From Streptomyces formicae (GTDB lineage Bacteria > Actinomycetota > Actinomycetes > Streptomycetales > Streptomycetaceae): DNA of 64,000 nucleotides. Numbering within the stretch: the first letter of the stretch is position 1; the number at the start of each line of letters is the position of its first letter. The notes under the pieces are model-generated. The model saw only the letters and a list, made by a program, of their open reading frames with translations, was not told where the DNA came from and made no database searches. Positions 23,141 to 37,793 of this stretch are shown in pieces. The position numbers and the translations under genes are program-made. Location of the stretch: positions 5,124,001-5,188,000 of the forward strand of contig NZ_CP022685.1 in NCBI RefSeq assembly GCF_002556545.1, read 5' to 3'.

Positions 23141-23214
23141 GCCGCCTTAGCTCAGATGGCCAGAGCAACGCACTCGTAATGCGTAGGTCTCGGGTTCGAA
23201 TCCCGAAGGCGGCT
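23141..23214 (+). tRNA. tRNA-Thr(CGT)
   Basis: The 74-nt gene has a perfect acceptor stem (GCCGCCT with AGGCGGC), discriminator T, D-arm around TTAGCTCAGATGGCCAGAGC, anticodon stem ACGCA/TGCGT with loop CTCGTAA (anticodon CGT at 23175-23177), and T-arm CGGGTTCGAATCCCG. CCA is not encoded. The 3' part from the anticodon stem onward is the attachment site of the integrated element and is repeated at 37750. Confidence 0.97.
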
Positions 23215-23215
23215 C
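23172..23215 (+). repeat. attL core (44 bp) within tRNA-Thr
   Basis: Runs from the anticodon stem (ACTCGTAATGCG) through the T-arm and acceptor end to one base past the tRNA. Identical to 37750-37793; the bases outside differ on both sides. Confidence 0.95.
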
Positions 23216-23262: not shown

Positions 23263-24672
23263 TCAGCGGATGCGGCGGCGTCGGCGGGAGCGGGCCGCGC
23301 GGGTCTCGGGGGTCTCAGTTCTGGTCTCAGTGGAGCCATGGACGGGGGCCGGATCGGGGTCCTGCGGACCGGGTACGAAGAACTCGCCCATGCGCCGCAT
23401 CGCGTCCTTGGACAGGTGGGATCGGCCCTTGACGTAGCGGCGGGTCTGGCTGATCTGGGTGTGCCGAAGGATCTCCATGATGGTGGGCATGTCGACGCCG
23501 AGCTCGTTCAGGATCGTTCCGGCGGTGTGGCGGCTCCCGTCGTACAGGCGGCGGTCGTCGATTCCGACTTCGGCGAGCAGCTCCTTGAACTCTTCGTAGT
23601 CGGCGCGCGGGTCGAAGGGGCGCCCGTCGGGGCGCGCGAACACCACGTCGTGCTCCTGCCACAGTTCCGCGGCTGCGGTGCGCATCTCGTCTTGCAGCGC
23701 CTTGTGGTCGCGCAGGAAGGGGATGAAGACGGGCGGGATCGGTACGGGGTTCTGGCTCTTCTTGGTCTTGGGGCGCGTGAAGACGAGCCCGCCTCCCTTG
23801 CGCTGGGGGCAGATGCTCGCGTGCTTCGTGCACGTCTTGGTGCAGGGCTTCGGGCAGCCGCGCTTGTAGCCCTCGTGCCGGGTGCAGTTCGACGGGCACG
23901 GGGCGAAGCGGTGGCGACGCGCCCCGCAGGCGTGCGGGTCATCGCACCCATGCCGCCAGGTGAGGCGCTGGAGCTGCCACTTGGGGTGGAACAGCTCTGC
24001 TTCCAGATCGACGTACGGCCACCGCAGGCCGAGCGTCTCGCCCTGCCGGAAGCCCATGCCGACGCCGACGATCCACCTCATGAAGGTGGGTCGCTTGGCG
24101 GCGGCTTCGAGGAACGCCTTGGCCTCCTCCTTGCTGAAGGGGTTGGCCTCGGTCTCGTCGACGCTCGGGGGGTCCACGAGGGTGGCCACGTTCTCGCTGA
24201 TCATGCGGCGGCGGTGGGCAATCTTCAGCGCGCGCGACAGGATCCGGTGCACCTTCACCACGTGGGAGGGGGCGTGCCCGGCATCGAGCATGGCCCGGTA
24301 CATCCGCTCCAGGTGCTCGGGCTGGAGCTTGTCGATGCGGTGCTGGCCGACGCCCGGGACGATGTCGTTGCGGGTCTTGGACCAGTAGTCGTCGAGGGAG
24401 CGCGGCTTGAGCTTCAGGCTCGCGATGTCGGTGAGGTAGGTCTCCATCCACGTGGCCACGGTCGGCTTGCGCCCTGCGGTAGGTGCGCGGCCCTGGTCGC
24501 GCTGGCGTTCCAGCTCTTTGACCTTGCGCTTGATCTCGGGTTCGGACTTGGCGCGGCGGTGGCGGCGGTCGGGGCTTCCGTCGTTCTTCACGCCCATCGT
24601 GACGCGGCCGTGCCACCAGCCATCGGCGCCGAAATAGATGGACGACTCGTTGTTGGCCCTGCGGGGGCTCAT
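23263..24672 (-). CDS. int: Tyrosine site-specific integrase of the AICE
   Basis: This 469-residue recombinase integrates and excises the element at tRNA-Thr. The N-terminal part has an AP2-like arm-binding region (YFGADGWWHGRVTMG) and the core-binding SAM-like helices (about 75-170). The catalytic residues are Arg in MGFRQGETLGLRW, the R-H pair in GSRHTAGTILNEL, the second His in LRHTQISQT and the nucleophile Tyr in RRYVKGRS. A Cys/His-rich insert of about 50 residues (nine cysteines, 240-290) lies inside the catalytic domain. The tail is Arg-rich. It is transcribed toward the attachment site. Confidence 0.95.
   Translation of the reverse strand: MSPRRANNESSIYFGADGWWHGRVTMGVKNDGSPDRRHRRAKSEPEIKRKVKELERQRDQGRAPTAGRKPTVATWMETYLTDIASLKLKPRSLDDYWSKTRNDIVPGVGQHRIDKLQPEHLERMYRAMLDAGHAPSHVVKVHRILSRALKIAHRRRMISENVATLVDPPSVDETEANPFSKEEAKAFLEAAAKRPTFMRWIVGVGMGFRQGETLGLRWPYVDLEAELFHPKWQLQRLTWRHGCDDPHACGARRHRFAPCPSNCTRHEGYKRGCPKPCTKTCTKHASICPQRKGGGLVFTRPKTKKSQNPVPIPPVFIPFLRDHKALQDEMRTAAAELWQEHDVVFARPDGRPFDPRADYEEFKELLAEVGIDDRRLYDGSRHTAGTILNELGVDMPTIMEILRHTQISQTRRYVKGRSHLSKDAMRRMGEFFVPGPQDPDPAPVHGSTETRTETPETRAARSRRRRRIR
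23311..23328 (+). repeat. Left arm-type site candidate
   Basis: GGTCTCAGTTCTGGTCTC, inside the 3' end of int, 96 bases from attL. It matches 16 of 18 bases at 37614-37631, a similar distance inside attR and in the same orientation. Each copy has two GGTCTC half-units. Confidence 0.45.
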
Positions 24673-25142: not shown

Positions 25143-26249
25143 ACTTTCGGGGGGCGGGGGGCAGTAGCGCTGCCACGCGTCGTGGAGATCGGCCGCGTGG
25201 TAGCCCTTGAGGACGCTCGCGCCGGTCTTGATGTTGCGGGAGGAGATGGGCTCGTTCTCGGCCGTCATGTACTCCGCGAGCATCTTGGACAGGCGCCGGT
25301 TGTCGAGTGGCTTGCCGTTCAGGTCGGCCCAGGGGGCGTCGTCCATGGAGTTGAGGCGGTCCAGGATGGCGACGGTGGGCAGGCGGTCGATGCCGGGCAT
25401 GACGTGGTCGCGCAGGTCCGTCAGGAGCCGGACGCCGATGCTGCCCTTGTCGTTGGCGCGGGAGGCGTTCACGAGGGTCACGCACGCGGCGCGGGCCCGC
25501 TCGGGCCAGTCGCCGCCTGCCGCGTCGGCGATGGCGAGCAGCGGTTCCCACACGTCGGCGGGCCGGTCGGAGACCCCTTCGGGCATGTCCGGCCAGGCGC
25601 CCATGATGAAGCCTCGGGCGTGTTCGGCCCAGGTGGCGAGCTGGTCGCGGAGCTTGTGGCCTTCGGCTTCGTGGACGCGGGCCCGGAAGGGCTCGACCGT
25701 CTCGTTCCGTGCGCGGCGGCGCATGCGGATGATGACGGAGCGGGACAGGATCGTGTCGGGCAGGGAGCCGAGTCCCGCCACCGCCACCGCGCAGTACGAG
25801 GGGAAGGCTTGCACGCTCTGGTTGCCACCGTCGCCGATGCACCGGTAGGTGACCCCGGTACGGCGGTGTCCGGCGTTCAGGAAGCCGCGCAACTCCTCGT
25901 TGTCGCCCGCCTTGGGCCCGAAGACGGTGTCGATCTCGTCGAACAGGATCGTCGGCTTGCCGTTCCCGCTGGACACGCTGCGGAAGAGCGCGGCGGCGGA
26001 CGCGTTGACGGCAGTCATGGGCTGCGGCACGAGGGTTTCCACGATCTCCAATGCCCGTGTCTTCCCCGAGCCCGGCTCGGGGGACAGGAACGCGATGCGC
26101 GGGGTGGAGTCGAAGCAGTCGAGCAGGTGCGCGTGCGCGTCCCACAACGCGACTGCGACGTAGGCGGCTTCGTGGGGGAAGACGTTGAAGCGGCGGTGGA
26201 AGGCTTCCACCTCGTTGAGCAGTGCGGCGCCGTCGATGGGGCTGGTCAT
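25104..26249 (-). CDS. DUF3631 P-loop ATPase, AICE replication protein
   Basis: This 381-residue ATPase probably acts as the helicase partner of the prim-pol encoded two genes upstream. Walker A is FLSPEPGSGKTRALEIVE near residue 60, Walker B is ILFDEIDTVFG near 105, and the DUF3631 signature region follows (RRTGVTYRCIGDGG, ILSRSVIIRMRRR). The ATG at 26249 is fixed by ATGA overlap with the preceding gene and by GGAAGG upstream; an earlier ATG at 26288 lies within that gene. Prim-pol plus DUF3631 is a common replication pair in AICEs and actinobacterial plasmids. Confidence 0.88.
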   Translation of the reverse strand: MTSPIDGAALLNEVEAFHRRFNVFPHEAAYVAVALWDAHAHLLDCFDSTPRIAFLSPEPGSGKTRALEIVETLVPQPMTAVNASAAALFRSVSSGNGKPTILFDEIDTVFGPKAGDNEELRGFLNAGHRRTGVTYRCIGDGGNQSVQAFPSYCAVAVAGLGSLPDTILSRSVIIRMRRRARNETVEPFRARVHEAEGHKLRDQLATWAEHARGFIMGAWPDMPEGVSDRPADVWEPLLAIADAAGGDWPERARAACVTLVNASRANDKGSIGVRLLTDLRDHVMPGIDRLPTVAILDRLNSMDDAPWADLNGKPLDNRRLSKMLAEYMTAENEPISSRNIKTGASVLKGYHAADLHDAWQRYCPPPPESPLPPLPGTENLA

Positions 26250-26593
26250 GCGGCGGCCCTTCCTTCCGGGGGGAGGCGCAGGGGGCATGCGTCGCGGTGG
26301 GCTTCGTGGTCGTCGATGAGGGCGAGCACCTTGTGGTGGCCGACCGCGCTGCGGTCACGGCCGCACAGGCACTTGGAGGTGGCGGTGGGGACCGTGCCGC
26401 GCGGGGCGCAGATGTGCAGCCACGCGATGGGGAACCGTCCGTCGCCTGCCTGCGGGTCAGGGCGAACAGCAATGGGGACGCCTTCGGCGACGCCCTTCGG
26501 CTCGCCCACCGCCGGAGGGGCGGCGGAGGGCTTGGCGGCGCACGGTCCCGTCGGGGGTCGGGGAGGGCTCTTAGGGGTGGTGGGGGTGTTCAT
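26246..26593 (-). CDS. Small Cys/His-rich protein between prim-pol and DUF3631 ATPase
   Basis: This 115-residue protein has a Pro/Ala-rich N-terminus (1-55) and a compact Cys/His-rich C-terminal half: HICAPRG, KCLCGRDRSAVGHH, and HEAHRDACPL. This could bind one or two metal ions. It overlaps both neighbours by ATGA, so it is coupled into the replication operon. Function unknown; an accessory role in replication is inferred from its place. Confidence 0.72.
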   Translation of the reverse strand: MNTPTTPKSPPRPPTGPCAAKPSAAPPAVGEPKGVAEGVPIAVRPDPQAGDGRFPIAWLHICAPRGTVPTATSKCLCGRDRSAVGHHKVLALIDDHEAHRDACPLRLPPEGRAAA

Positions 26594-27507
26594 GTGGCCC
26601 TGCCCCGGGGTGAGTTGTGGGTCTCGGACCAGTCCAGGGCACGCCGGATCACGTCGTCGTAGTAGCTCTGCGACTGTGTGGCGTTGGCCCCCGCCGCCCC
26701 TCTAAGAGCCTGCTCAACCCGGACGCGGGGGAGGTCGCCGGATGCGATGAACCGTCCCAGAGCGCGGGCGGCTCGAAGGAGTGTTGCGTTGCGGGTGCCG
26801 TCGGCAGCGGTAGCGACGTTCTTCACCTCGCTGGTGAACGCTGCATCCACATATCGGCTGGATTGCCCCGATCCGGCCCGTGGGGGCGCCTGTGCGGGCC
26901 TGGGGGCCGGTTTCAGGATGCTCAGGAGCCACGAGGGCAACGGGGTCGCCACAGGGCCGCCCACGGCTTCGTAGGGTCCGGCGGGAGTGGCGCTGCCCGC
27001 CGCGACGACGTAGCCGCCCCACGCCCGGGTGTCGACCAACGGGGCGATGGAGCCTGCGGTGTTGGCCAGGCGCACGCTGGGCGGGGTGGTGAAGTACAGG
27101 TGCTCACCACCGCTCGCAGTCCGCACTCGGTGGGTGTCGGGGACGGTGTGCCCGGCGCGCTCGCAGAGCGCCTCGAAGGTCGTCGCGCCGCAAGGCGCGT
27201 CCGAACTGCCCTTGTCCTTGGGCATGTCCAGGTCGACGACGACCAGCTGGGAAGGGCCGGTGGCGATGCCGACGTTGAACGCGTCCGTCGACCAGGCGGC
27301 ACGGATGCGGTCCGGGTCGGTGGAGGCGCGCTGCTCCCACTTGCGGTGCCCGCTCGCGCAGACTCCGGTGCGGGGGCAGGATGCCTCGCCGTGCAGGGCG
27401 GGGCGCTTGCTGCCGGGGCGCAGCGGGAAGACGTGCCAACCGCGCGCGGCAGCGTCTAAGGCGGCGGACAACAGGCCCACTCGCCGGATGTCGGTGGGTT
27501 GCGTCAT
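26590..27507 (-). CDS. Bifunctional primase-polymerase (prim-pol, RepPP type)
   Basis: This 305-residue replication protein has the N-terminal prim-pol domain. The family opening ALDAAARGWHVFPLRPGSKRP is at residues 14-35, the catalytic acid pair is in LVVVDLDMPKDKG, the His motif is SGGEHLYFTT near 155, and a conserved GGYVVAAGS follows. The C-terminal part (230-305) is helical, with NATLLRAARALGRF. It would prime and extend DNA at the element's origin. ATG at 27507 is chosen since conserved sequence starts there. The 3' end overlaps the next gene. AICEs with this replication type form the RepPP class. Confidence 0.88.
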   Translation of the reverse strand: MTQPTDIRRVGLLSAALDAAARGWHVFPLRPGSKRPALHGEASCPRTGVCASGHRKWEQRASTDPDRIRAAWSTDAFNVGIATGPSQLVVVDLDMPKDKGSSDAPCGATTFEALCERAGHTVPDTHRVRTASGGEHLYFTTPPSVRLANTAGSIAPLVDTRAWGGYVVAAGSATPAGPYEAVGGPVATPLPSWLLSILKPAPRPAQAPPRAGSGQSSRYVDAAFTSEVKNVATAADGTRNATLLRAARALGRFIASGDLPRVRVEQALRGAAGANATQSQSYYDDVIRRALDWSETHNSPRGRAT

Positions 27508-27593
27508 GCTGGATGTCTCCAGTTCTGTGATGAGCGCTGGTGACAAGGGCGGCCCCAGGCTTTGGCGAGACGGGGGCCGCCCTTGCGTTGCTG

Positions 27594-28013
27594 CTAGGTG
27601 CTGGGCAGGAGGCGGGCGATCGACGCGGCGACGACGGCGATGTCCTTCGGGTCGGCGCGAACCAAGCCGTGAACGTCGGTGCCGCAGTAGGCGCTCATGG
27701 CCGCAGCGAGTGCCGCCATCAGCCGGTCGCCCTCCTGCCAGGTGGGGGGTTCGGCTTCGTGGCTGGGGGTGTCCATGTGGGCGTGCACCCACCAGCCCTC
27801 GCGGTAGGAGTCGACCCACTGGACGCCCTGGCCGCACACGGCGCACTGCACGGGCGGCACGGTGCGGTGTTTGGCCTTGGTGTACAGGCGTCGGCGGTGA
27901 CCGTCGCGAGTCGGGCGGTCATCGATCGCGCTGGTCAGGTCGAACGCGAGGGTCAGCGTTTCTTTGACCTTGGTGACGTCGTCGGGCTCGCAGATCACGC
28001 GGATTTCAAACAA
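27594..28013 (-). CDS. Hypothetical AICE protein with a zinc-finger-like site
   Basis: This 139-residue protein has a centre reading VQCAVCGQGVQWVDSYREGWWVHAHMDTPSH, here described as a CxxC pair followed by three His within 30 residues, a plausible zinc site. The first 40 residues look like a small alpha/beta domain. The start is TTG at 28013 with AGGAG seven bases upstream. It lies between the Spd-like and prim-pol genes. No known function. Confidence 0.68.
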   Translation of the reverse strand: MFEIRVICEPDDVTKVKETLTLAFDLTSAIDDRPTRDGHRRRLYTKAKHRTVPPVQCAVCGQGVQWVDSYREGWWVHAHMDTPSHEAEPPTWQEGDRLMAALAAAMSAYCGTDVHGLVRADPKDIAVVAASIARLLPST

Positions 28014-28065
28014 GGGCAGAACTCCTTGGGCTAGCCGTGGAAGTGGTTGTGCTTGAGGACGGGTG

Positions 28066-28539
28066 TTACGGCTGGTTGTGGGTCTTGGCCCACACGCCGT
28101 TGGTGCGGCTGTGGAGGGTGCGTCGGTCCTGGTGGACGGGGCCTTGGTAGTGGTGGTGGATGTCCGGGGCGGGCTTGGCGCGCTGGGCGAGGCGGGCGAG
28201 GGCGAGCACGAGGGCGGTGGGGGCGCCGAAGGCGAGGCCGCAGACGAGCGGGTCGGCGAACTGGGAGACGTACATGAGCACGCCCGCCGTGCCGCCGACC
28301 ATGACGGTGGTGGCGCCCCCGGCGAGCAGGAGCACGCTGGCGTCGGTGGCGCCCTGGCTCATCGGCGGGCGTCCGGGCTGCGCCACGGCCGGGGTGTCGC
28401 CGTGGGCGGGCACCGGGGTGTCGTCGCGGTAGGCGGTGGGCCGGTAGGCGTCGGTGATGAGCCGACGCGCCGCCACCTCGGCCTGCTCCTCACTCAGACC
28501 GGCGCCCGCCGGGGGCGCCTGGGGGGTGTCGGGGTGCAT
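28066..28539 (-). CDS. SpdD-like small membrane protein (spread)
   Basis: This 157-residue protein has a Pro-rich cytoplasmic N-terminus (1-65), two adjacent membrane helices (SVLLLAGGATTVMVGGTAGVLMY and LVCGLAFGAPTALVLALARL) and a basic, His-rich tail (IHHHYQGPVHQDRR). AICEs and Streptomyces plasmids encode such Spd proteins next to the translocase; they help spread the element through the recipient mycelium. The start is ATG at 28539 with GAAGGGA seven bases upstream; 28554 is an alternative. Confidence 0.7.
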   Translation of the reverse strand: MHPDTPQAPPAGAGLSEEQAEVAARRLITDAYRPTAYRDDTPVPAHGDTPAVAQPGRPPMSQGATDASVLLLAGGATTVMVGGTAGVLMYVSQFADPLVCGLAFGAPTALVLALARLAQRAKPAPDIHHHYQGPVHQDRRTLHSRTNGVWAKTHNQP

Positions 28540-28563
28540 GTGGAATCCCTTCATCGGAGTGTC

Positions 28564-28720
28564 CAGGGAGGCAGAAGCACCCCCTTGCGGGGGCGCTGTG
28601 GAGGGGGTTTCAGGGGGTTGACCTGCGGTGCCTCCCTGCCTCCCTGATTGATCGTTTGCGCAGGTCAGAGGGAGGGAGGCGGGGCAGGGAGGCGGGTAGG
28701 GAGTTCTCCCTGCCTCCCTG
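28564..28720. repeat. TGCCTCCCTG repeat cluster, candidate clt transfer locus
   Basis: The gap between the Spd-like gene and the translocase gene holds repeats of one 10-mer. TGCCTCCCTG is at 28629, 28637 and 28711; its complement CAGGGAGGCA is at 28564, with a nine-of-ten match at 28685 and the shorter AGGGAGGC at 28673. Copies at 28629 and 28637 overlap by two bases. In Streptomyces conjugation the TraB translocase binds short repeats of a non-coding locus (clt) next to its gene, so this is the best candidate. Confidence 0.55.
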
Positions 28721-28742
28721 ACCCGGCAGTGGTCGGCTCCCT

Positions 28743-30878
28743 CTAGCCGATCGCGGAAAGCGGAGCGTCCCCGTCGCCGTCGTCGTCGGGACGGTTGGCG
28801 AGCGCGCGGGCGACCTTGTCGCGGGAGACGACCATCACGCCATCGGACTTGTACGGCTCCGCCCCATCGGCGTCCAAGACGCGCTTGAGGTCGATGAACG
28901 ACCACTTCCCGTAGGCGTCCGCATTCAGCGAGGCGAGCCGCGCAAGCACGTCCTTGGTGCGGACGCGGGGCGCGTCTCCGAGCACGGAGAAGATGTCACG
29001 GAGCGGGTCGCGCTGCTCGCCCCGGTCGATGGCGTGCAGGGTGGTGACGTTGTCGCGCAGCGCCTTGGCGCGCTCGATGATGGCCTTGGCGTCGTCGTCG
29101 TTGATGTAGTGCGTGCGCACCGTGATGGACGACTGTCCGGCCGGGATGTCGATGCCGTCGGAGGCGACGACCAGGGTGCCCTTGTCCAGGCCCTGACGCA
29201 GCAGGTGCGGGGCGGCGCCGCCGTCGACGGCCTTGTCTCCCAGCGCCATGCGGGCCTGCGACTCGGTGCCCAGCACGAGGGAGGCGCGGGTGTGGGCGCC
29301 CTCGCGGACCAGCTTGGGCAGGTTCTGGTCGGTGGGGTCCTGGGTGCCCTGCCACATCAGGACGTCGACCGCGCGCCCCTGGTTGTGGATTTTGCGGACC
29401 GCCATGAAGTAGCGGCTGGTGGCCTTGGCTCCGCCGTAGGGCCGCTTGTCGTCACCGATGACCGGGCACATGAACGCCAGCTGCGCTTCATCCACCAGGA
29501 CGATGAGCGGAGCGAACACGATGGTCGGGTCCTTGCGGCGTGCCTCGATGCGGCGGTTCATCTCCTCCACCGCGTCCTCGACCATCTCGGTGGCCTCGAT
29601 GACGTGGTCATCGGAAGGGCCCTCGATGAGCACGCTGGCGATGCCCTCGAACATGGCCCAGTCGCCGATGCCCTTCAGGTCGGCGATCCAGAACTGTACC
29701 GACCTGTCCAGGGCCAGCCACAGAGCCAGAGCCCGCACGGCGGCGGTCTTGCCCTGGTTGGACAGGCCGGTCACCAACAGGTGTCGCTGATACACGCTGA
29801 GCGTGGCGGCATCACCGCGCAGGTCCTGGCTCCACGGGGCCTTGCCCTTGCAGTAGTCGGCGGTCGTCGTCTCGTCGGTGACCAGCGGGGACGGGCCGAT
29901 CGGCTCGTCTAGCGCGCCGGAGTCGGCCACCCACAACCGCACCGTGCGGGCGGCTTCGGGGATCGTGATGAACACTTCGTGCTCGTGCCTGGTCAGGTTC
30001 TCCGCGAGCTTGCGGCGGCGCTGCTGCACTTCCACGGTGGAGACCCCGGAGGGCAGGGTGACGTCGACCTCCACGCCGCATCCGGCGATCCGGATCGGAC
30101 CCAGCATCGCCGCGCCCGCGTCGCCCATCTCTCGGATGGCGTTGCGCAGCGCCGGAACCCCCAGGTCCCGCAGCGCCTTGACGACGATCGAGGGGGTGAT
30201 GGGCTCGCCCTCACCGGAGCGGACCCGCTCGGGCAGGGCCCAGGTGGGGGCGGCCTGGGAGTGGCGGCCCACGCTCCACAGCGCGAGCAGCGCCAGCAAC
30301 GGCCCGATCCGCAGCGCGGGACCCCACACCACGGACACGATCGTGACGAGCAGGCGGATGAACTCGATCACCGCCATCAACGGCGTGAGAACGTCGCCGA
30401 CGTCCTCGTTCGCGACAGCGAGCACCACCCCGAGCCCAACGAGGGAGCCGATGCCCGCTCCGGTGCCGACCGCGAGGCCCTTGGCCACGTCCACGGGGGA
30501 CGTGAGGAGGTCCATGCGGCGGCGGTGACGGGCCTCCCGGAAGCGCTGAAGCCGCTCTTCCCACTCGGCGGCCACCTCGTAGTTTCCGGCGGCTTCGGCG
30601 GCGCGCAGGAGGCGTTCGTAGCGGGCTCCGGTGCGGCCGTCCCAGGTGCGGCGGGCCACGATCCGGGTGCCACCCACCACGTACATGCTGTGGCGCACGG
30701 CCAACCGGCCCGCCTCACGGGTGCGTTCGTGCGTGACCGCGTGGCGGATGGCACGTCCGGAGCGCACCCACAACGGCCGCTCGGGCCCGTCCGGGGTGGA
30801 AGCCGCGGGGAGGTCGGGATTTATGCCGGCATAACTCTGGGCCGGGTCTTTGTGCAGGTGAACGATGGTGCCGCTCAT
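28743..30878 (-). CDS. FtsK/SpoIIIE-type conjugative DNA translocase (TraB/TraSA-like)
   Basis: This 711-residue ring ATPase moves double-stranded element DNA to the recipient, the feature of Streptomyces conjugation. Two membrane segments lie near residues 134-157 and 163-203. The P-loop LLVTGLSNQGKTAAVRALA is at about 371-379 and Walker B is PLIVLVDEAQLAF. A winged-helix-like C-terminus (RVRTKDVLARLASLNADAY, 620-700) may read the clt repeats just downstream of the gene. ATG at 30878 is preferred over 30956. It is transcribed with the small genes that precede it. Confidence 0.92.
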   Translation of the reverse strand: MSGTIVHLHKDPAQSYAGINPDLPAASTPDGPERPLWVRSGRAIRHAVTHERTREAGRLAVRHSMYVVGGTRIVARRTWDGRTGARYERLLRAAEAAGNYEVAAEWEERLQRFREARHRRRMDLLTSPVDVAKGLAVGTGAGIGSLVGLGVVLAVANEDVGDVLTPLMAVIEFIRLLVTIVSVVWGPALRIGPLLALLALWSVGRHSQAAPTWALPERVRSGEGEPITPSIVVKALRDLGVPALRNAIREMGDAGAAMLGPIRIAGCGVEVDVTLPSGVSTVEVQQRRRKLAENLTRHEHEVFITIPEAARTVRLWVADSGALDEPIGPSPLVTDETTTADYCKGKAPWSQDLRGDAATLSVYQRHLLVTGLSNQGKTAAVRALALWLALDRSVQFWIADLKGIGDWAMFEGIASVLIEGPSDDHVIEATEMVEDAVEEMNRRIEARRKDPTIVFAPLIVLVDEAQLAFMCPVIGDDKRPYGGAKATSRYFMAVRKIHNQGRAVDVLMWQGTQDPTDQNLPKLVREGAHTRASLVLGTESQARMALGDKAVDGGAAPHLLRQGLDKGTLVVASDGIDIPAGQSSITVRTHYINDDDAKAIIERAKALRDNVTTLHAIDRGEQRDPLRDIFSVLGDAPRVRTKDVLARLASLNADAYGKWSFIDLKRVLDADGAEPYKSDGVMVVSRDKVARALANRPDDDGDGDAPLSAIG

Positions 30879-31025
30879 GACGGCATCACTCCTGACTGCC
30901 CCTGGCAGGGGCGGAACGTTGGGGTGCGGGGTGGCCGCGCGGCAGGCGGCGGCCACCCCGAAAAGAGGCGCGGATGCGGGAGGCTCAGCGCATCGGCGGG
31001 CGGTGGGTCACCACCAGCGGGACGG

Positions 31026-31184
31026 CTACTTGGGCACGAGGAAGGGGCAGCCGTTGACCATGTGGTCCACGCACGACGGGCAGTCCTCACGCGGCCCCAG
31101 GCGGCGGTGAATGCTCTTGTCGTACGCGTGCTGCCAGCACTGCGGACACTCACCCGCAGGCGCCGGTTTGGCGGCCACGGTCAC
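31026..31184 (-). CDS. Small zinc-ribbon-like protein with three Cys pairs
   Basis: This 52-residue protein has CPQCWQHAYD, then DCPSCVDHMVNGCPFLVPK at the end. Two CxxC pairs and two His plus a further Cys fit one tight zinc fold. The GTG start at 31184 overlaps the preceding gene's stop (GTGA), which supports it as a real gene despite its size. Similar small proteins sit upstream of tra in many Streptomyces AICEs; their function is not known. Confidence 0.75.
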   Translation of the reverse strand: MTVAAKPAPAGECPQCWQHAYDKSIHRRLGPREDCPSCVDHMVNGCPFLVPK

Positions 31185-31507
31185 CACCAGCCCGACGACT
31201 TCTTGGCCTTCTTGGCGGCCTTGTCGGCGGCGGCCCGCTTCACGGCCTCGGCCCGCTCGATCTCCAGCGCGCCGACCTCCGCCTGGAGACGGATCGCGGC
31301 CGACTCCCAGGTCTGTTCGCCCTTCGCGTCCGGCCCGGACGTGCTCTTGTGCCGCACGACCTTGGCCGACCCGCTCGCCACGGCGGACAAGATGGCGCGG
31401 CGCTCACGGCCGTTCAGCGCCCACATCTCACGCTTGCGGGCGGCTTCGAGCTTGCGCTTGGTGGTGCGGATATCGCGGTCGATCCGGTTCGTGTCAGGGG
31501 TACCCAC
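31181..31507 (-). CDS. Hypothetical helical, Lys-rich AICE protein
   Basis: The 108-residue protein is almost entirely helical and charged (IDRDIRTTKRKLEAARKREM, then AEVGALEIERAEAVKRAAAD) and ends in a Lys/Ala run before SSGWW. The start is GTG at 31507 with AGGAG six bases upstream. The stop overlaps the zinc-ribbon gene. No family recognised. The basic tail could bind DNA or membrane, but this is a guess. Confidence 0.7.
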   Translation of the reverse strand: MGTPDTNRIDRDIRTTKRKLEAARKREMWALNGRERRAILSAVASGSAKVVRHKSTSGPDAKGEQTWESAAIRLQAEVGALEIERAEAVKRAAADKAAKKAKKSSGWW

Positions 31508-31539
31508 AGGGGTTCTCCTCGCAAGGGAAACGTGCCTGG

Positions 31540-31929
31540 TCAGGGGGTAGAGGTACGGCGGGCGTCGTGGCACAGCACGCACATGCCGAGCGACGTCGGC
31601 AGGCAGTAGCTGTAGACCACCCCGCACACGGGGCAGGTGCGCCGGGCGAGCATCGCCAGCGCGAGCGCCCCGCACCTGCGCGACGTCATCGGCCGCACCG
31701 GCAACGCCCGGTCCACCCAGTAGAGGTAGGCGATCGCCGCGCCGGACTTGCGGCGGCGCGAAAGGCGCATGAGCTGGGCCGCTATCGGCTGACCGCCCGG
31801 ACGCAGACCCTGGGCGCGCAACTGCCTGCGCGTGCAGAGCCCGTCCGGGGCGAACTTCCACGGGAAGGTGGGCAGGCCGTATCGGGCGCCGGTCGGGTCG
31901 AAGCACTCGGCATACGCGGTGGCCATCAC
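31540..31929 (-). CDS. RRQRL-motif zinc-binding protein
   Basis: This 129-residue protein carries DGLCTRRQLRAQGLRPGGQP near residue 30, the motif after which this AICE family is named, and a C-terminal zinc site (CPVCGVVYSYCLPTS, CVLCHDAR) made of CxxC pairs. The middle (IAAQLMRLSRRRKSGAAIAY) is basic. It may bind DNA. GTG at 31929 and ATG at 31926 are both possible; GTG overlaps the stop of the gene before. Confidence 0.78.
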   Translation of the reverse strand: MMATAYAECFDPTGARYGLPTFPWKFAPDGLCTRRQLRAQGLRPGGQPIAAQLMRLSRRRKSGAAIAYLYWVDRALPVRPMTSRRCGALALAMLARRTCPVCGVVYSYCLPTSLGMCVLCHDARRTSTP

Positions 31930-32912
31930 ACGGCCTCAAGGGCGGGCTCGCGGTGCTCGGCAAAGCGGGAAGAAACCCACCCGACCGACCAGCCGCACAA
32001 CTCCGCCGCCTGCCGCACCGAAACACTGGCCTGGAACGCGGCGGCCACGATCCGGCGCGCCTCATCCTCGGGCAGCTTGTGCTCAGCGAGGCCCCGGCTC
32101 AGGAGCGCGGCGCGTTCACGCTCGGCCCGCTCCTGACGTTCACGGTGTTCACGCTCGGCTGCCGCAGCGCGCTCACGCCGTTCCGCTTCCGCCCGCTCGC
32201 GGGCCTGGCGTTCACGCGTGAGGCGCTCGCGTTCACGCTGTTCATGCTCGCGTTCACGGCGTTCACGAGCCTCCCGCTCAACAGCCTCCGACCGCTCGCG
32301 CGCCTCGCGCTCCTCACGACGACGACGCTCCTCGCGCTCGCTCTGTTCACGAGCCAGGCGGGCTTCATGGTCGCGCTGTTCACGCGCCAACCGCGCGGCG
32401 TGCTCGCGTTCCTCGCGGGCCTCAGCGCGGGCCTGCTCGGCACGCTCGCGGGCCGCCTGCTCCCGCTGTACGCGCTCGGCCTTCTGCTGGGCTTCCAGGC
32501 TGCTGACGGCCCTTGCGATGGCGCGCCGGTAGGCAAGGCCCGTCTCGGCCGTGACGATGAGCAGCAGCGGCGCCACGGCGTGGACGGACATGCCGACCAG
32601 GTCCTTCTTCAATGCGGAGTCAGCCGTGTTGAGGGCCAGCGTCATCAGGCCGGTCATCCACCGCAGCACCACGGGCCAGCGTCCGCCGCACCCGCCCAGG
32701 CGGGCCAACACGTCATCGAGCTTGACCACGATCACCACGGCCGCATCGACCACGAGCGGCAGGATCGGAGCCGTCCACGCCCACGTGTCGGCGGTGTGCT
32801 GGGCCATCAGCGGCGTGACCGTCAAGACGGAGTAGAGCATCGCCCCGAACACGATCAGCCACGTGCCGATGGACAGCGCCTTCTCCGCTGAACGGATATG
32901 AACAGCGTTCAC
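31926..32912 (-). CDS. DUF2637 membrane protein with long ER-rich helix and C-terminal HTH (SpdB-like)
   Basis: The predicted protein has 328 residues in three parts. Residues 1-125 hold about four membrane helices of DUF2637 type (GTWLIVFGAMLYSVLTVTPL; APILPLVVDAAVVIVVKLDD). Residues about 138-275 are almost pure Arg, Glu and Ala in an (E/R)4-7 pattern such as REREHEQRERERLTRERQAR, expected to form a long single alpha-helix. Residues 280-328 form a helix-turn-helix (VRQAAELCGWSVGWVSSRFA). Such proteins are annotated in AICEs as transfer or spread proteins. The HTH at the end of a rigid rod suggests that it tethers DNA at the membrane. Overlaps both neighbours. Confidence 0.82.
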   Translation of the reverse strand: MNAVHIRSAEKALSIGTWLIVFGAMLYSVLTVTPLMAQHTADTWAWTAPILPLVVDAAVVIVVKLDDVLARLGGCGGRWPVVLRWMTGLMTLALNTADSALKKDLVGMSVHAVAPLLLIVTAETGLAYRRAIARAVSSLEAQQKAERVQREQAARERAEQARAEAREEREHAARLAREQRDHEARLAREQSEREERRRREEREARERSEAVEREARERREREHEQRERERLTRERQARERAEAERRERAAAAEREHRERQERAERERAALLSRGLAEHKLPEDEARRIVAAAFQASVSVRQAAELCGWSVGWVSSRFAEHREPALEAV

Positions 32913-33439
32913 GCCGCACCCCCGACCGGTTCCGCGACCGGGGTGAGCGCCCCACGAAATCCCCGCGCATCCACGTCATAGGTGAACGTCGCGAGCCGCC
33001 ATTCCGCATCCGCCCAAAATCCCCGGGCAGGACCCCACGCGCGGTCCGCCGGAACCCCGTGGGTGGCGGTGTCGGCGTAGGCGTCCTCGCGACTGCGGTA
33101 GACCATCGTCGGGGTGCCGTAGTGCACGAGCACGAACACCTGCCGGGCCGGTACGAGCGCCTCCGCGAGTTCCTCGCGCAGGCGCCGTAGCTCGATGCCC
33201 TTCAGCAGAAGGTCTTCCTGCGCGGCGCTCAGTTCGTCCACCGCACCGGCCAGCATCGCCTCAACCCCGCGCTTGCTTGCCTCCGCACGCTCGGCGCGGG
33301 CGGTGGCGGCGGCCAGCTCCTCCACGTGCCGGGCAGCAGCCCGGCTCGCGGTCTCGGTCGCCTGGCGGGCTCGCTCGAACGCGGCATGCGTGTCGGCTTC
33401 GAGCAGTGCCAGGCGCTTCCTGGTGACGAGGCGCATCAT
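32909..33439 (-). CDS. Hypothetical AICE protein, coiled coil plus C-terminal domain
   Basis: This 176-residue protein has a helical N-terminal half predicted as coiled coil (HVEELAAATARAERAEASKR). The C-terminal half (100-176) is a small globular domain containing QVFVLVHYGTPTMVYRSRED and a Trp-rich segment. No family recognised. ATG at 33439 and ATG at 33436 are both possible; the gene overlaps the preceding stop and ends overlapping the DUF2637 gene by ATGA. Confidence 0.68.
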   Translation of the reverse strand: MMRLVTRKRLALLEADTHAAFERARQATETASRAAARHVEELAAATARAERAEASKRGVEAMLAGAVDELSAAQEDLLLKGIELRRLREELAEALVPARQVFVLVHYGTPTMVYRSREDAYADTATHGVPADRAWGPARGFWADAEWRLATFTYDVDARGFRGALTPVAEPVGGAA

Positions 33440-33675
33440 GCTGCACCGCCCCTCTGGCGGACGTGGTGGCGCCAGCCGATGACCTGCCCGGTGAAGCAGA
33501 GGGCGGACACCGCCACCAGCCACGGCACGTTCCATACCAGGGAGCTGACCGACGCGGCGATGGACAGCACCGCGCCCACGAACGCGAGCAGGAGACTGGT
33601 CTTGGTGTCGGTCCGGGCGATCTCCGCCTTCACCTCAGCGTGCGCGGCCGCAAGGTTCTGCTCGGTGGCACTCAC
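33436..33675 (-). CDS. Mini membrane protein resembling the Pycsar-effector TM domain
   Basis: The protein has 79 residues. The N-terminal helix EVKAEIARTDTKTSLLLAFVGA carries the D-T-K-x-S-x-L-L pattern found at the start of the membrane domain of Pycsar system effectors (DUF5706), followed by two hydrophobic helices (SLLLAFVGAVLSIAASV and WLVAVSALCFTGQVIGW). Known members have about 150 residues and a second pair of helices, so this is a half-length version. GTG start at 33675 overlaps the preceding stop. A role in defence or exclusion is inferred only from this resemblance. Confidence 0.6.
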   Translation of the reverse strand: MSATEQNLAAAHAEVKAEIARTDTKTSLLLAFVGAVLSIAASVSSLVWNVPWLVAVSALCFTGQVIGWRHHVRQRGGAA

Positions 33676-33938
33676 GCGCCCACCCCCGGCGCGATGGCGG
33701 CGGCCGTGTTGGCGAGCGTCACGCGGGCGGCCAGGGCCTTGCGGCGGGCGCGGCGCAGACGCCGCTCGTCCAGCTCGTTCGGGACCCGGTCCAGGGTGAG
33801 GATCTGCGCGTCGAGCAGGTCGACGTCCGCCAGGATGACGGGCATCTCCAGCTCGATCGCGTCCAGCTCAACGGCCGTGGGCTCCAGATCCGGAGCCAAG
33901 GCCGTAACAGCCTCTTGAACAGTGACGATGTGGTCCAT
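33672..33938 (-). CDS. DUF6284 family small protein
   Basis: This 88-residue acidic-then-basic protein has the recognisable core LDAIELEMPVILADVDLLDA and the basic helix ELDERRLRRARRKALAAR. This matches DUF6284, a family found in Streptomyces mobile elements with no known function. It starts the coupled operon that runs through the DUF2637 gene; all genes from here to the RRQRL gene overlap by a few bases. Confidence 0.72.
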   Translation of the reverse strand: MDHIVTVQEAVTALAPDLEPTAVELDAIELEMPVILADVDLLDAQILTLDRVPNELDERRLRRARRKALAARVTLANTAAAIAPGVGA

Positions 33939-33977
33939 GGGTCGTGTTCTCCCTAGCAGGTGGCAACGGCCCCAACA

Positions 33978-34007
33978 GAGCCCCCGGAGTAGCCGCTCCG
34001 GGGGCTC
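33978..34007 (-). terminator. Perfect 12-bp hairpin upstream of the DUF6284 gene
   Basis: GAGCCCCCGGAG pairs exactly with 33996-34007 around TAGCCG. On the minus strand it separates the 60-residue gene from the DUF6284 operon. It may be a partial terminator or an RNA-stability hairpin. Confidence 0.6.
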
Positions 34008-34062
34008 GCGCCGTTGAGGAAGGAAGCCGCGCGATTGATGCGCGGCACGGCCGCAGAGCAGC

Positions 34063-34114
34063 GGCCGGAGTGCCCCCGCCGGGAGTCGAACCCGGCGCGT
34101 GGACCATCGGGGCG
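34063..34114 (-). repeat. tRNA T-arm-like 52-bp element, copy 1
   Basis: Read on the minus strand it holds GCGCCGGGTTCGACTCCCGG, a 7-bp stem closed by the tRNA T-loop consensus TTCGANY, followed directly by CGGGGGCAC. It lies after the 60-residue gene. It is identical to copy 2 at 50 of 52 positions. Confidence 0.6.
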
Positions 34115-34131
34115 GAAGTGCAGGGGGTAGG

Positions 34132-34314
34132 TCAGCGGCCGAAGGACTGGCGGATGCTGCCGTGGTTGTCGCCGTCGATCACGTTCGCGTTGGTGCCGTA
34201 CTGCGACTCGCTGTCCATATCGACCTGCTGTCCGCTGCCCAGATGCGTCGGGCCGTCGGTCGACTCGATGACGGTCGACGCCATGTTCTTCAGGTCCTCG
34301 ATGCTCAGCGCCAT
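34132..34314 (-). CDS. Small acidic hypothetical AICE protein
   Basis: This 60-residue protein is rich in Ser, Asp and Asn after a short amphipathic start (MALSIEDLKNMASTVIEST). AGGAG lies seven bases before the ATG at 34314, a good ribosome site. It is flanked on both sides by the 52-bp T-arm-like elements. No family recognised. Confidence 0.6.
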   Translation of the reverse strand: MALSIEDLKNMASTVIESTDGPTHLGSGQQVDMDSESQYGTNANVIDGDNHGSIRQSFGR

Positions 34315-34354
34315 GACGTGCTCCTGTCGGATCAGTGAAGGACCGGCCGGTGAT

Positions 34355-34406
34355 GGCCGGAGTGCCCCCGCCGGGAGTCGAACCCGGCGCTTGGACCTTC
34401 GGGGCG
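34355..34406 (-). repeat. tRNA T-arm-like 52-bp element, copy 2
   Basis: Same element as 34063-34114, with two base changes. It lies 13 bases after the stop of the KilB-like gene on the minus strand. An outer pairing GCCCC/GGGGC brackets the T-arm-like hairpin. Confidence 0.6.
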
Positions 34407-34418
34407 ATCGAGTAGGGA

Positions 34419-34871
34419 TCAGGCATAGACGCGGCGGGCGCCGGTCTCACGCAGCGCGGTGTGCGCCACACGGGCCCGCAGGCCCGCCGCGTCCAACTCG
34501 CCCTCGCTCGCGTCTCCGAGCGCCATGGCGGCGTCGACCGCTTCCTGCGCGGCCGCCAGCAGGACGTCGTCCTGGGTGGTCATGTGCAGGGTGTCCATGG
34601 CGCTGGTCACCGCCGTACGGGCCGCGTAGCGGGCCTGACGCGCTTCGGTGGTCTCGGCCTGCGCCTCGCGGCGGGCCACGAGCTTCAGGTACTGCTGTTC
34701 ACGGTGGCGGGCCAGCGCGGCGAGCAGCGCCGGGATCGCGGTCGCGAGGGCCTGCCTGCGCTGTTCAGCGGTGGCCTTCTGCGCGGTGCGGGCGGTGGTC
34801 AGGTACTGCATGAACCCGGCGACGACGGCACCGGCGAGCGTGCCGAGCACCGCGATAAGCGTTCCGATCAT
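34419..34871 (-). CDS. KilB-like small membrane-anchored protein
   Basis: The 150-residue protein has one N-terminal membrane helix (MIGTLIAVLGTLAGAVVAGF) followed by a long charged helical region rich in Arg, Gln and Ala (TARTAQKATAEQRRQALATA). The N-terminal sequence and build match proteins annotated KilB in Streptomyces plasmids and AICEs. The start at 34871 follows GGAGTCGTC; an earlier ATG at 34904 lacks a ribosome site. Its exact role is unknown. Confidence 0.65.
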   Translation of the reverse strand: MIGTLIAVLGTLAGAVVAGFMQYLTTARTAQKATAEQRRQALATAIPALLAALARHREQQYLKLVARREAQAETTEARQARYAARTAVTSAMDTLHMTTQDDVLLAAAQEAVDAAMALGDASEGELDAAGLRARVAHTALRETGARRVYA

Positions 34872-34922
34872 GACGACTCCAGGAAGCGACAGAGGCACGG
34901 GCACGAGATGGTGCAGGGCGGG

Positions 34923-35072
34923 TCAGCGGTTGGCCTTCTTGTGCTGCTGGGCGATCTGGGCGGCGGCCAGCTTGTTGCGTCCCGCGTACTTGTGGAACCC
35001 GCAGTGGCACTTGACGACCCAGGTGCCGTCGAGCGCGGTCGAGTGTCGGATCGACGTGGAGTGCTTGGCCAT
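34923..35072 (-). CDS. Tiny Cys/His transfer-region protein
   Basis: This 49-residue protein has a CHCGFHKYAGRNKLAAAQIA core followed by QQH: Cys-x-Cys, then two His, a possible single zinc site. GAGGA lies seven bases before ATG 35072. It is the first gene of the leftward operon and follows the operator region, so it is likely the first gene to respond when repression is lifted. Small proteins of this look are annotated as mobile element transfer proteins. Confidence 0.65.
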   Translation of the reverse strand: MAKHSTSIRHSTALDGTWVVKCHCGFHKYAGRNKLAAAQIAQQHKKANR

Positions 35073-35335
35073 GGCAGTCCTCTCACGAAGGAGTTCGGGT
35101 CTCTCCCGGCTCCCCTCAGCACTGCTCGTACGAGACGAGCAGCGGAGGCAACCGGCCGCAGTGCTGAGCTGCGGAGTTGGGTGGTTCAGGTGTCTCGTTC
35201 GGGGACGCGCCTGCCGTTTCACGGAACAGGTCGCTAGGGCCCCGTCTCAGGTGAGACAGACCGTCCGGACTGACAAGGGACGCCACCTTTCGGCGGCGAC
35301 TGTCCGGCACCCTCCCCCCGTCCAACGCGGGGCTC

Positions 35336-35408
35336 CTGGTTGCGCACCACCGCCGGAGCAAGTCCGTCATCTGGTGCGCACCAGAAGCATGCAACTGGTG
35401 CGCACCAG
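35336..35408. promoter_or_regulatory. Operator cluster, CTGGTGCGCACCAG palindromes
   Basis: Two perfect 14-bp palindromes, CTGGTGCGCACCAG, lie at 35371-35384 and 35395-35408, 24 bp apart. An imperfect copy with one extra base (CTGGTTGCGCACCAC) is at 35336-35350. The sites are in the 500-base gap between the leftward transfer operon and the rightward XRE gene. A related palindrome precedes the GntR-Nudix gene, which is the likely repressor. The rest of the gap (35073-35335 and 35409-35549) shows no gene; the part next to the XRE gene is AT-rich, with TTAAC and GTTAA repeats. Confidence 0.75.
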
Positions 35409-35549
35409 AGTCAAGGGGCTTCGCCGGATCGAGTGGCGTTTGCCCCCTGCGGTGCACCTACAGAAGACCGCTTCGGGGAGGGGGTTCGGTAGCCAACAGC
35501 TCTTAACTCCCGTTCTGTTAACCCCTGTTGACCTGCGGCGATGTGAGGC

Positions 35550-36725
35550 ATGCTGGGGGAGTCAGTGAATGGACCTACTGCCGGGCGGTGGCCTGTGAGT
35601 GCAGGACTTCGGAGCGCGCGAACGGCGCAGGGCTGGTCTCAGGAGCGACTGGTTCGCGAGATTGAGCAGTACGCCAAGCGGCACGTGACCGATGTCGCTT
35701 CGACCGCGAGCCTGCGCGTGTACGTCTCTGAGTGGGAAAACGGCAAGCGCACCATCTCGGACCGCTACGCGACGGTCCTGCGGCAGCTTCTCGGGGTCAC
35801 CGACGCGGAGTTGAGGAGCGGCCCGCCTTCGATTGCTTCACCCACAGCCGATGGGTACGACGACCTGCTGAGCAGGATCGACTCAGCCCACAGCGTCGGG
35901 GAATCCATGGTGAAGGCGTTCAATGACCAGACCGAGCTACTGCGCACGATGGACCGCCAGATGGGTGCCGCTGGTCTCGTGGATCAGATGACAGGGCACC
36001 TCGCAGCTCTTGAGGACGCGCTGAACTTCGCGGTACTCCCGAGCGCGCGCCGCCCCGTGGCACTTGCGCTCGCCGGTGCATCGACGCTCGCCGCATGGCA
36101 GGCGATCGACTCAGGGGCAATCGAACGGGCCTGGAAGCACTACGAACTTGCCAAGCGAGCAGCGCACGACGCGGCGGCTCCGATGTACCTCGCCCACGCG
36201 ATGGGGGAGCAGGCGTACGTGCTTTGCGAGGCGGGTCGACCTGCTCTAGGTCTGGAACTGGTTCGCGATGCTCAACACACCCTGGGACAAGCCGGATCGG
36301 CGCGCTTGAGGGCATGGTTGTACGCCGCTGAGGCAGAGCTGTGCGCCCACGCCGGAATGCCGGACGACTGCCGACGCGCGCTTGATGCGGCTATGGCGAG
36401 CATCCCGCCGGGTGCTGAGGATCGCGACCCGGACATGGCGAGCATCTTCCTGAACGGCGGTCACTTGGCCCGGTGGCGAGGCAACGTCCTGGGCCTGTTG
36501 GGGGATGCCGATGCTGTGAGCAGTCTGTATGGGGCCTTAGAGGTAGTCGACCCGACCTTTGTCCGTGCCCAAGCCGGACTCCACACTGACCTTGCCCAGG
36601 CTCATCTGGCGCGTGCCGAGTACGACGACGCGAACACCCATCTCCGGAAGGCGCGACTACTGGCGAGCCGCACCGGTTCGGTGCGGCAGCGCCGTCGCGT
36701 CGACCTCCTCAGCGAGCGCCTGTGA
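35550..36725 (+). CDS. XRE-family regulator with TPR-like C-terminus
   Basis: This 391-residue protein has an N-terminal helix-turn-helix (LRSARTAQGWSQERLVREIE, then YVSEWENGKRTISDRYATVL). The rest, from about residue 145, is helical repeats of TPR type (AWKHYELAKRAAHDAAAPMY; AHLARAEYDDANTHLRKARL), as in regulators that sense a small peptide or ligand. It is the only rightward gene of the element and is the candidate activator of transfer or excision. ATG 35550 is used. GTG at 35565, after GGGGGAG, and GTG 35595 are alternatives. Its end overlaps the convergent GntR-Nudix gene by 17 bases. G+C is lower than in its neighbours. Confidence 0.82.
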   Translation: MLGESVNGPTAGRWPVSAGLRSARTAQGWSQERLVREIEQYAKRHVTDVASTASLRVYVSEWENGKRTISDRYATVLRQLLGVTDAELRSGPPSIASPTADGYDDLLSRIDSAHSVGESMVKAFNDQTELLRTMDRQMGAAGLVDQMTGHLAALEDALNFAVLPSARRPVALALAGASTLAAWQAIDSGAIERAWKHYELAKRAAHDAAAPMYLAHAMGEQAYVLCEAGRPALGLELVRDAQHTLGQAGSARLRAWLYAAEAELCAHAGMPDDCRRALDAAMASIPPGAEDRDPDMASIFLNGGHLARWRGNVLGLLGDADAVSSLYGALEVVDPTFVRAQAGLHTDLAQAHLARAEYDDANTHLRKARLLASRTGSVRQRRRVDLLSERL

Positions 36726-37515
36726 CCCCGGAGTTCTTTCGGCTCGCGAGGATGTGAAGCAGGGCCACGAGGGTGCCGGACCCCATCAGCTCACCGCGAG
36801 CCATGAGACCCGGGATATCGGCCAGAGGGACCCACTCGATGTGGCCCGCCTCTTCGAGATCAGTGGGGTCGCCAACCCGCTCGGCTCCGTGTCCAACGAA
36901 GATCTCGTGAGGCGAGTCGACCATCCCGACCATGGGTTGGTAGGTGACGATGTGCTCCACGGACTTCGGGCGCCACCCTGTCTCCTCCACGACCTCCCGT
37001 AGCGCCGTGGTCGCAGGGGCTTCGTCCTCGTCGACGATGCCGCCCGGAAGTTCCCATCCCCACTGCTGCGGAACGAAGCGGTACCGCCACATCATCAGGA
37101 CGCGGTCCTGATCATCCAAGACCGCTGTGATGGCTACGTGGTGGAGCTTCACCACGTGGTGCTCGAAGCGCTCTACGCCGGGCGGCTCCACATCCCAGAG
37201 TTGCAGTTTCACCCAGCGGTTGTCGTAGAGATCGCGCTCACCGTGAATGACCCATGGTTCCAAGCCTTCGGGTGTCCCGACGCTCACCGCTCCGGGGACC
37301 CGGTACGAGCTTCTCCCTCGGACTTCCAAGGCGCCCTCTGACAGGAGTCGAGCGAGGACTTGCCGAAGCGCCGTCCGGCCGATGCCAAGCTCCTCCGAGA
37401 GTGTTCTCTCCGAGGGCATCTTGTCGCCGGGGGCGTACTCGCCTGACGCGAGCCGTGCACGAATCGTCTCGTAGACCTTGGCTGTCTTCGGCCCCATCCG
37501 CGGCGCACTCTCCAT
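36709..37515 (-). CDS. GntR-family repressor fused to a Nudix hydrolase domain (KorSA-Pif-like)
   Basis: This 268-residue protein has residues 8-70 as a GntR winged helix (VYETIRARLASGEYAPGDKM, then PSERTLSEELGIGRTALRQV). Residues about 90-250 form a Nudix domain with a complete box: Gly-x5-Glu-x7-Arg-Glu-Val-Val-Glu-Glu-Thr-Gly in GGIVDEDEAPATTALREVVE. All catalytic Glu residues are present. In pSAM2 the transfer repressor KorSA is GntR-type and the separate immunity factor Pif has a Nudix motif. Having both in one chain suggests a combined repressor and immunity protein. Start 37515 lies six bases from an operator; ATG 37497 (after GGAGAG) is the alternative. Confidence 0.88.
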   Translation of the reverse strand: MESAPRMGPKTAKVYETIRARLASGEYAPGDKMPSERTLSEELGIGRTALRQVLARLLSEGALEVRGRSSYRVPGAVSVGTPEGLEPWVIHGERDLYDNRWVKLQLWDVEPPGVERFEHHVVKLHHVAITAVLDDQDRVLMMWRYRFVPQQWGWELPGGIVDEDEAPATTALREVVEETGWRPKSVEHIVTYQPMVGMVDSPHEIFVGHGAERVGDPTDLEEAGHIEWVPLADIPGLMARGELMGSGTLVALLHILASRKNSGVTGAR

Positions 37516-37521
37516 TCTGAG

Positions 37522-37535
37522 GTGGTGCGTACCAG
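37522..37535. promoter_or_regulatory. Operator next to the GntR-Nudix start
   Basis: GTGGTGCGTACCAG matches CTGGTGCGCACCAG at 12 of 14 positions. It ends six bases before the proposed start codon, an ideal place for autorepression. Confidence 0.7.
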
Positions 37536-37613
37536 CGTAACGGGGCAGGGGCACACTGCCTTCGGTCGTATCTATGCCAACCCCCTGAGGCTCCTAAGGG
37601 CAGTACAGGATGT

Positions 37614-37631
37614 GGTCTCAGTCGTGGTCTC
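37614..37631 (+). repeat. Right arm-type site candidate
   Basis: GGTCTCAGTCGTGGTCTC matches 16 of 18 bases at 23311-23328. It lies 118 bases inside attR, in the gap (37536-37749) that otherwise shows no gene. Confidence 0.45.
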
Positions 37632-37749
37632 GATAGCCCCTCAATCTGTCGGTATCCGTGATCGTCCACCGTCGTCCGGCGGCCCGTCCGACCTGCGATG
37701 AACGACCGCTGCCGGACCACCACGGACGCGCTTGGACCAAGATCCGACA

Positions 37750-37793
37750 ACTCGTAATGCGTAGGTCTCGGGTTCGAATCCCGAAGGCGGCTC
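37750..37793 (+). repeat. attR core (44 bp), displaced 3' half of tRNA-Thr
   Basis: Identical to 23172-23215. No tRNA 5' half lies upstream, so this copy is not a functional tRNA. It marks the right end of the element. Confidence 0.95.

Follow-up and report, generated by a model that had tools for sequence, protein, structure and literature searches.

A 14.6-kb integrative element (23172-37793), integrated in tRNA-Thr(CGT), is present in the window, the 64,000-nucleotide stretch of the Streptomyces formicae genome (contig NZ_CP022685.1, positions 5,124,001 to 5,188,000) to which the coordinates given here refer unless stated otherwise. At the right end of the element, a gene on the minus strand (36709..37497) encodes a GntR DNA-binding domain and a Nudix domain in one chain. 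Comparison of this gene and its surroundings with related loci indicates that the fusion is probably a KorSA-like, autoregulated repressor of the element's transfer genes with a Nudix effector domain.

The open reading frame (ORF) runs from 37515 to 36709 (268 amino acids), the full extent assigned to the gene by an earlier reading of the sequence (the original prediction), but its likely translation start is M7 (37497), giving 262 amino acids, since M7 is conserved: it is unchanged in all 14 aligned rows (the window and 13 relatives), and nine of the 13 relatives start at the equivalent position. The prediction of both domains in one 268-residue chain with an intact Nudix box was confirmed, as Pfam places GntR (PF00392) at residues 11-73 (E 1.5e-18; 66.7 bits versus a cut-off of 27) and NUDIX (PF00293) at residues 125-234 (E 5.5e-19), and all residues of the Nudix box GX5EX7REUXEEXGU are intact. 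An ADP-ribose-pyrophosphatase-like Nudix domain spans residues ~85-262, and matches to known structures cover residues 80-263 only, that is, without the GntR head. The named subfamilies of GntR regulators carry an FCD, UTRA or aminotransferase effector domain at the C-terminus. The fusion has the N-terminal winged helix of the GntR superfamily, but Pfam finds none of these three domains in it; in the C-terminal half NUDIX alone passes the cut-off.

The gene is accompanied by three predicted 12-bp operators. The original prediction had pointed to palindromes at 35371 and 37522; both are real, but near 35371 there are two rather than one. O1 (35396..35407) and O2 (35372..35383) both read TGGTGCGCACCA, and O3 (37523..37534), which reads TGGTACGCACCA on the minus strand, lies ~37 bp 5' of M7 and is the proposed autoregulation site. 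O1 and O2 belong to a predicted minus-strand promoter facing the leftward transfer operon, which consists of a -35 box TTGACT (35409..35414), placed by the conservation of TTGAC near O1, a 17-nucleotide spacer holding O1, a -10-like CATGCT (35386..35391), which is a weak match conserved in place and only loosely in letters, and then O2 at the predicted start of the transcript. The pattern TGGTRCGYACCA occurs at only eight places in the 9.61-Mb genome, three of which are O1, O2 and O3. The other five are single copies (G000; 3462443, 4235325, 7752828, 8596709 and 8809389) that are probably there by chance, or are possible host targets.

These sites were examined by phylogenetic footprinting in 82 fetched fusion loci (L006, L007 and L008-L087, the last series being 80 kept of 321 relatives), to which L136 from genome G569 was added. 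Exactly two tandem sites, 22-25 bp apart, are found in 75 of the 77 loci that have the intergenic region; the two exceptions hold none and one. A site with no more than two mismatches in 12 positions lies in the 90 bp preceding M7 in 59 of 80 loci (three mismatches in two, four to five in 19); only 22 of 1620 random 90-bp windows contain such a site. A relaxed operator pattern has 151 matches in the intergenic region and 42 upstream of the fusion gene, and only one at any other place in 1.50 Mb. TTGAC stands within 10 nucleotides before the first operator in 75 of 77 tandem-operator sequences, including the window and L136 (84 were examined, and seven lacking the tandem were set aside), compared to 0.27% of random 10-nucleotide windows. 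All three sites are present even in L136, where the protein is 61% identical and the host belongs to another family. Chance palindromes are ruled out by the rarity of the pattern in the genome, the conservation counts and the random-window controls, and the conservation argues for a leftward promoter at O1 and O2. In several loci (L068, L069, L072, L073, L077-L084) the 60 bp preceding the fusion gene lack the own-promoter operator, and some of these have other inverted repeats there instead, with the transfer-promoter operators unchanged.

The distribution of GntR genes, counted with a 29-row GntR profile, points to the fusion as the likely binder of these sites. The fused GntR head was found in all 83 fusion loci, and no second GntR gene was found on the element side of any of them (720 kb). 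Ten loci have a GntR gene on the other side, which in L006 belongs to the next tandem copy of the fusion and in the remaining nine is presumably chromosomal. For comparison, 19 loci (18 distinct) were fetched that contain a related Nudix gene without a single-GntR head: none of the 19 has the operator, and six have some other TGGT-N4-ACCA somewhere. In seven of the 19 (L088 with the overlapping L143, L089, L137, L138, L142 and L144) a separate GntR gene lies no more than 3 kb from the Nudix gene, and in four it is further away. Loci whose Nudix protein carries a GntR head thus lack a separate GntR gene; the converse is a tendency and not a rule. In L088 the Nudix gene is followed by an XRE regulator and then by the separate GntR gene, and the Nudix genes of L138 and L150 have an HTH_17-like head of their own (the L150 frame contains one TAG). 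In L089, on the Pseudonocardia plasmid pBCI1-2, unannotated GntR-like stretches (4619-5582) directly precede the Nudix gene beside an IS481 transposase; a further GntR-Nudix fusion may have been disrupted here.

From the observed conservation of the sites and their co-occurrence with the fusion, we infer a scheme of DNA binding, ligand gating, hydrolysis and immunity. As the autoregulated master repressor of the element, the fusion would do the job of KorSA with a different effector half. A dimer formed through the Nudix half would bind TGGTGCGCACCA at O1, between the -35 and -10 boxes, and at O2, repressing the promoter that drives the leftward transfer genes and perhaps also the replication and integration genes, while binding at O3 would provide autoregulation. 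The Nudix domain, in place of a UTRA effector, would gate DNA binding through a nucleoside-diphosphate metabolite that it probably hydrolyses, as suggested by the architecture, the invariant catalytic residues and the several kinds of head fused to this Nudix family. An incoming copy of the element would likewise have this promoter shut off by the resident one.

The original prediction, which likened the protein to a fusion of KorSA with Pif, therefore holds in part: site conservation supports a KorSA-like repressor role at the named palindromes, but a literal KorSA-Pif fusion is rejected for the KorSA half, because the DNA-binding half is only a GntR winged helix-turn-helix (wHTH) with no UTRA domain as in SCO3932, the KorSA homologue, which is described as GntR-UTRA (PMC8584621). 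KorSA of pSAM2 and SCO3932, both GntR/HutC repressors from actinomycete integrative elements, share with the fusion the GntR winged helix, a site at their own promoter and sites at a key promoter of the element, those of the fusion being predicted. KorSA is described as acting on pra, with no site upstream of traSA (PMC8584621), whereas the predicted sites of the fusion lie in the promoter facing the transfer operon. As in pSAM2-like elements with pif/nud, xre and mdp genes, a Nudix protein is found here on the element with an NsdA-like XRE protein alongside, and a Nudix motif such as is described for Pif is present; however, Pif is described as a separate immunity factor (PMC3218068), whereas here the Nudix domain is fused to a DNA-binding domain. 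Such elements are reported often to carry NUDIX genes, an mdp-nud-xre cluster, KorSA relatives and NsdA-like XRE proteins, and the mechanism of Pif and other Nudix proteins in conjugal immunity is stated there to be unknown (Ghinet et al. 2011, PMC3218068). NrtR and AraR also combine a Nudix effector and a winged helix in one chain, but are described with an N-terminal Nudix domain, a C-terminal wHTH and an impaired box (PMC4666351); the fusion has the reverse order, a wHTH of the GntR family and an intact box, and so lies outside the NrtR family. This precedent (PMC4666351) makes it reasonable to hypothesize, with the original prediction, that a ligand of the Nudix domain is the inducer. A gene with a helix-turn-helix (HTH) and a nudix domain, possibly cI-related, is mentioned as data not shown for the Streptomyces conjugative element ICE01 (PMC9513070), in a passage without a sequence, operator or family. 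In the literature searched, mainly outside subscription papers, neither a GntR-Nudix fusion nor this operator was found described, nor was anything found on SLP1 imp, and the operator string matched only three papers that by their titles concern other subjects.

The catalytic residues of the Nudix half are invariant. The Nudix-box residues and E222 are identical in all 83 fusion rows (the window and 82 loci), and also in all 46 rows of an alignment that includes unfused proteins; E222 aligns at the E141/E142 pair of the Mycobacterium tuberculosis ADP-ribose pyrophosphatase, the alignments differing by one place. The fusion has the fold and the Nudix-box residues of ADP-ribose pyrophosphatases.

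The Nudix family of the fusion is found with several kinds of head. A search with the L088 Nudix protein returned 791 relatives; among 122 proteins whose layout was determined (the 120 listed, the query and P0126), 75 have the Nudix domain alone, 31 an HTH_17-like head, 15 a double GntR and one a GntR fragment. Pfam found two GntR stretches in all three double-GntR proteins tested, and found the excisionase-like HTH_17 domain in six of seven tested, always below the cut-off (20.6-26.1 bits versus 27), so the latter assignment is likely rather than firm. Examples are the double-GntR-Nudix proteins P0139, P0165 and P0171 (~340 amino acids) and the HTH_17-like-Nudix proteins P0178, P0179 and P0225 (250-310 amino acids), several from Actinoplanes. 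In a quick tree of 160 rows the single-GntR fusions cluster, separate from the double-GntR ones and the one fragment, and in a careful tree of 53 rows they form one clade (99/91). Approximately unbiased (AU) tests (LG+G4; the 53 of 160 rows were chosen after the quick tree had been seen, with labels from the domain layout set before the trees) reject a single event for all HTH-Nudix fusions (p 8e-12), one clade of single- and double-GntR fusions (p 0.001) and one clade of the HTH_17-like group alone (p 0.03). The Nudix module thus appears to have been joined to DNA-binding heads at least three times (two GntR types and an HTH_17-like type); counts of losses are less secure, as some rows with Nudix alone may come from short contigs and be incomplete.

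The invariant active site can also be accommodated by a chain with two uncoupled jobs, in which the GntR domain represses and the Nudix domain is an independent, Pif-like immunity enzyme. Pif of pSAM2 is described as a Nudix protein conferring conjugal immunity (PMC3218068), catalytic residues are identical in all 83 rows, and related Nudix genes also occur unfused next to an NsdA-like gene; but the three kinds of head on this Nudix family, with single- and double-GntR fusions not forming one clade, point to coupling of GntR and Nudix, and two independent jobs are a possible but doubtful reading. An equally doubtful one is that the Nudix domain serves only for dimerization and ligand sensing, without meaningful catalysis, as in NrtR-type regulators, where ADP-ribose or arabinose is described as releasing the DNA (PMC4666351, PMC9503650). 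The impaired box described for NrtR and AraR (PMC4666351) stands against it, the box of the fusion being intact in every row. It is very unlikely that the sites are instead those of the convergent NsdA-like regulator, with the fusion acting as a cargo Nudix enzyme whose GntR head is incidental: an NsdA-like match is present in 79 of the 82 fusion loci (tblastn; median identity 82.6%), with its start mostly 140-190 bp from the tandem sites, but L088 (with the overlapping L143), L092, L137, L138, L141, L142, L144, L146 and L150 have NsdA-like matches of at least 80 bits, to diverged proteins, and no sites, a site also occurs at the fusion's own promoter (the 42 relaxed-pattern matches), and TGGT..ACCA half-sites suit GntR proteins (FadR-type).

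Several observations weigh against a Nudix-gated, autoregulated transfer repressor. The operators are assigned to the fusion by co-occurrence, and the NsdA-like partner, found in nearly the same loci, could bind them, an objection weakened by the NsdA-linked loci that have no single-GntR head and lack the sites. Eight of the 19 comparison loci show no GntR gene in the stretch fetched, so replacement of a GntR gene is no strict rule. No recognizable O3 (at least four mismatches) is present in 19 of 80 loci, and autoregulation is thus not universal or uses other sites. A generic promoter and terminator scan called nothing at the predicted transfer promoter, whose -10 box is weak. The signature of ADP-ribose pyrophosphatases includes an SPG motif, its proline downstream of the Nudix box; this place reads MVG or MIG in nearly all fusion rows, and the substrate may therefore not be ADP-ribose. 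The controlled operon is also not always recognizable as an FtsK transfer operon, as in L136, L008 and L017 (see below).

A more specific and considerably more tentative version of the Nudix-gated repressor is a self-clearing one, in which a nucleoside-diphosphate signal (for example NAD- or ADP-ribose-derived) would release the repressor and then be destroyed by its own Nudix site, so that derepression would come as a timed pulse; on this view the Nudix "immunity" factors of such elements would belong to a signal circuit that has captured DNA-binding heads, probably at least three times. The fusion would link Nudix chemistry with transcription of transfer genes through one protein, a 12-bp operator set and an invariant active site, and offers a way to test what Nudix proteins, whose role is unexplained, do in such elements. 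If the proposed gating is true, it would represent a class of GntR effector built on a nucleotide-cleaving fold.

The fusion is widespread in Streptomyces. A protein search returned 1090 relatives (E <= 1e-3), and all of the 120 matches listed carry both domains. In a sample of 295 genomes of the genus, 54 match at E <= 1e-60; the full-length fusion is present in 49 of them, in 51 copies of which one has an in-frame TAA, and five have a partial match only. In a sample of 296 genomes of the class, 23 match at E <= 1e-50, of which four are full-length fusions and 19 cover the Nudix part only; G569 has the one full-length fusion outside the genus (locus L136). A rare, one-off fusion is thus rejected by the many relatives and the 49 genus genomes. 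The double-GntR type gave one match in the 295 genus genomes, to the Nudix part only, and a search of viral contigs for the fusion gave one locus only. L006 (NZ_CP071873.1) is a 27.8-kb S. formicae "plasmid" in which ~2.7 copies of a 10.4-kb element follow one another head to tail. This element has the same gene order as the window around the fusion, and the "plasmid" is either an excised tandem form or an assembly artefact.

The fusion and the NsdA-like gene appear to form a control cassette on changing backbones, as judged from 63 of 81 loci (L006 being left out) with at least 9 kb downstream. The NsdA-like gene is present in 61 of these 63, whereas a relative of the window's translocase is found in only 27 (14 of them at 24-37% identity), the window-type Prim-Pol in 18, and the translocase and replication protein of the L006 type in 11. 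In 19 of the 63, the searches recovered no translocase, replication protein or integrase of the types sought; among these, the largest ORF of L008 and L017 matches FtsK below the cut-off (21.0 and 19.9 bits versus 24). Integrases often lie beyond the 10-kb flank, so their comparison is not even-handed. A tRNA gene was found at the far end in three of 16 scanned loci (Ile in L136, Val in L068 and L073; Thr in the window), and no direct repeats recognizable as attachment (att) sites were found in these three. L136 encodes a DUF3631 AAA protein and an integrase adjoining tRNA-Ile (12973-16330); as neither of the two ORFs tested there is FtsK-like, the same cassette may here control a related element that is not conjugative.

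The element in the window has the features of an actinomycete integrative and conjugative element: integration at a tRNA 3' end with direct-repeat att sites, an integrase (PF00589), a replication protein (PF09250) and an FtsK/TraB translocase (PF01580). It is bounded by two 44-bp direct repeats, 100% identical, one being the 3' end (23172-23215) of the plus-strand tRNA-Thr(CGT) gene (23141..23215) and the other (37750..37793, plus strand) the right end of the element. The minus strand encodes the tyrosine integrase (23263..24672), the Prim-Pol replication protein (26590..27846; E 2e-45), a 737-residue TraB-type FtsK/SpoIIIE translocase (28743..30956; 28.8 bits versus a cut-off of 24), a DUF6284 protein annotated by domain search (33672..33938) and a 49-residue ORF (34923..35072), predicted to be the first of the leftward operon. 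The NsdA-like XRE/TPR regulator (35550..36725, plus strand; NF053720, 146.9 bits versus a cut-off of 75) is convergent with the fusion gene and overlaps it by 17 bp. The S. formicae genome (one contig) matches the fusion over its full length only once; the second-best match, elsewhere in the genome, is 38% identical over the Nudix part. Two 63-nucleotide direct repeats (34063-34125 and 34355-34417), 89% identical and resembling a tRNA T-arm, lie among the small genes that open the transfer operon, where no tRNA was called.
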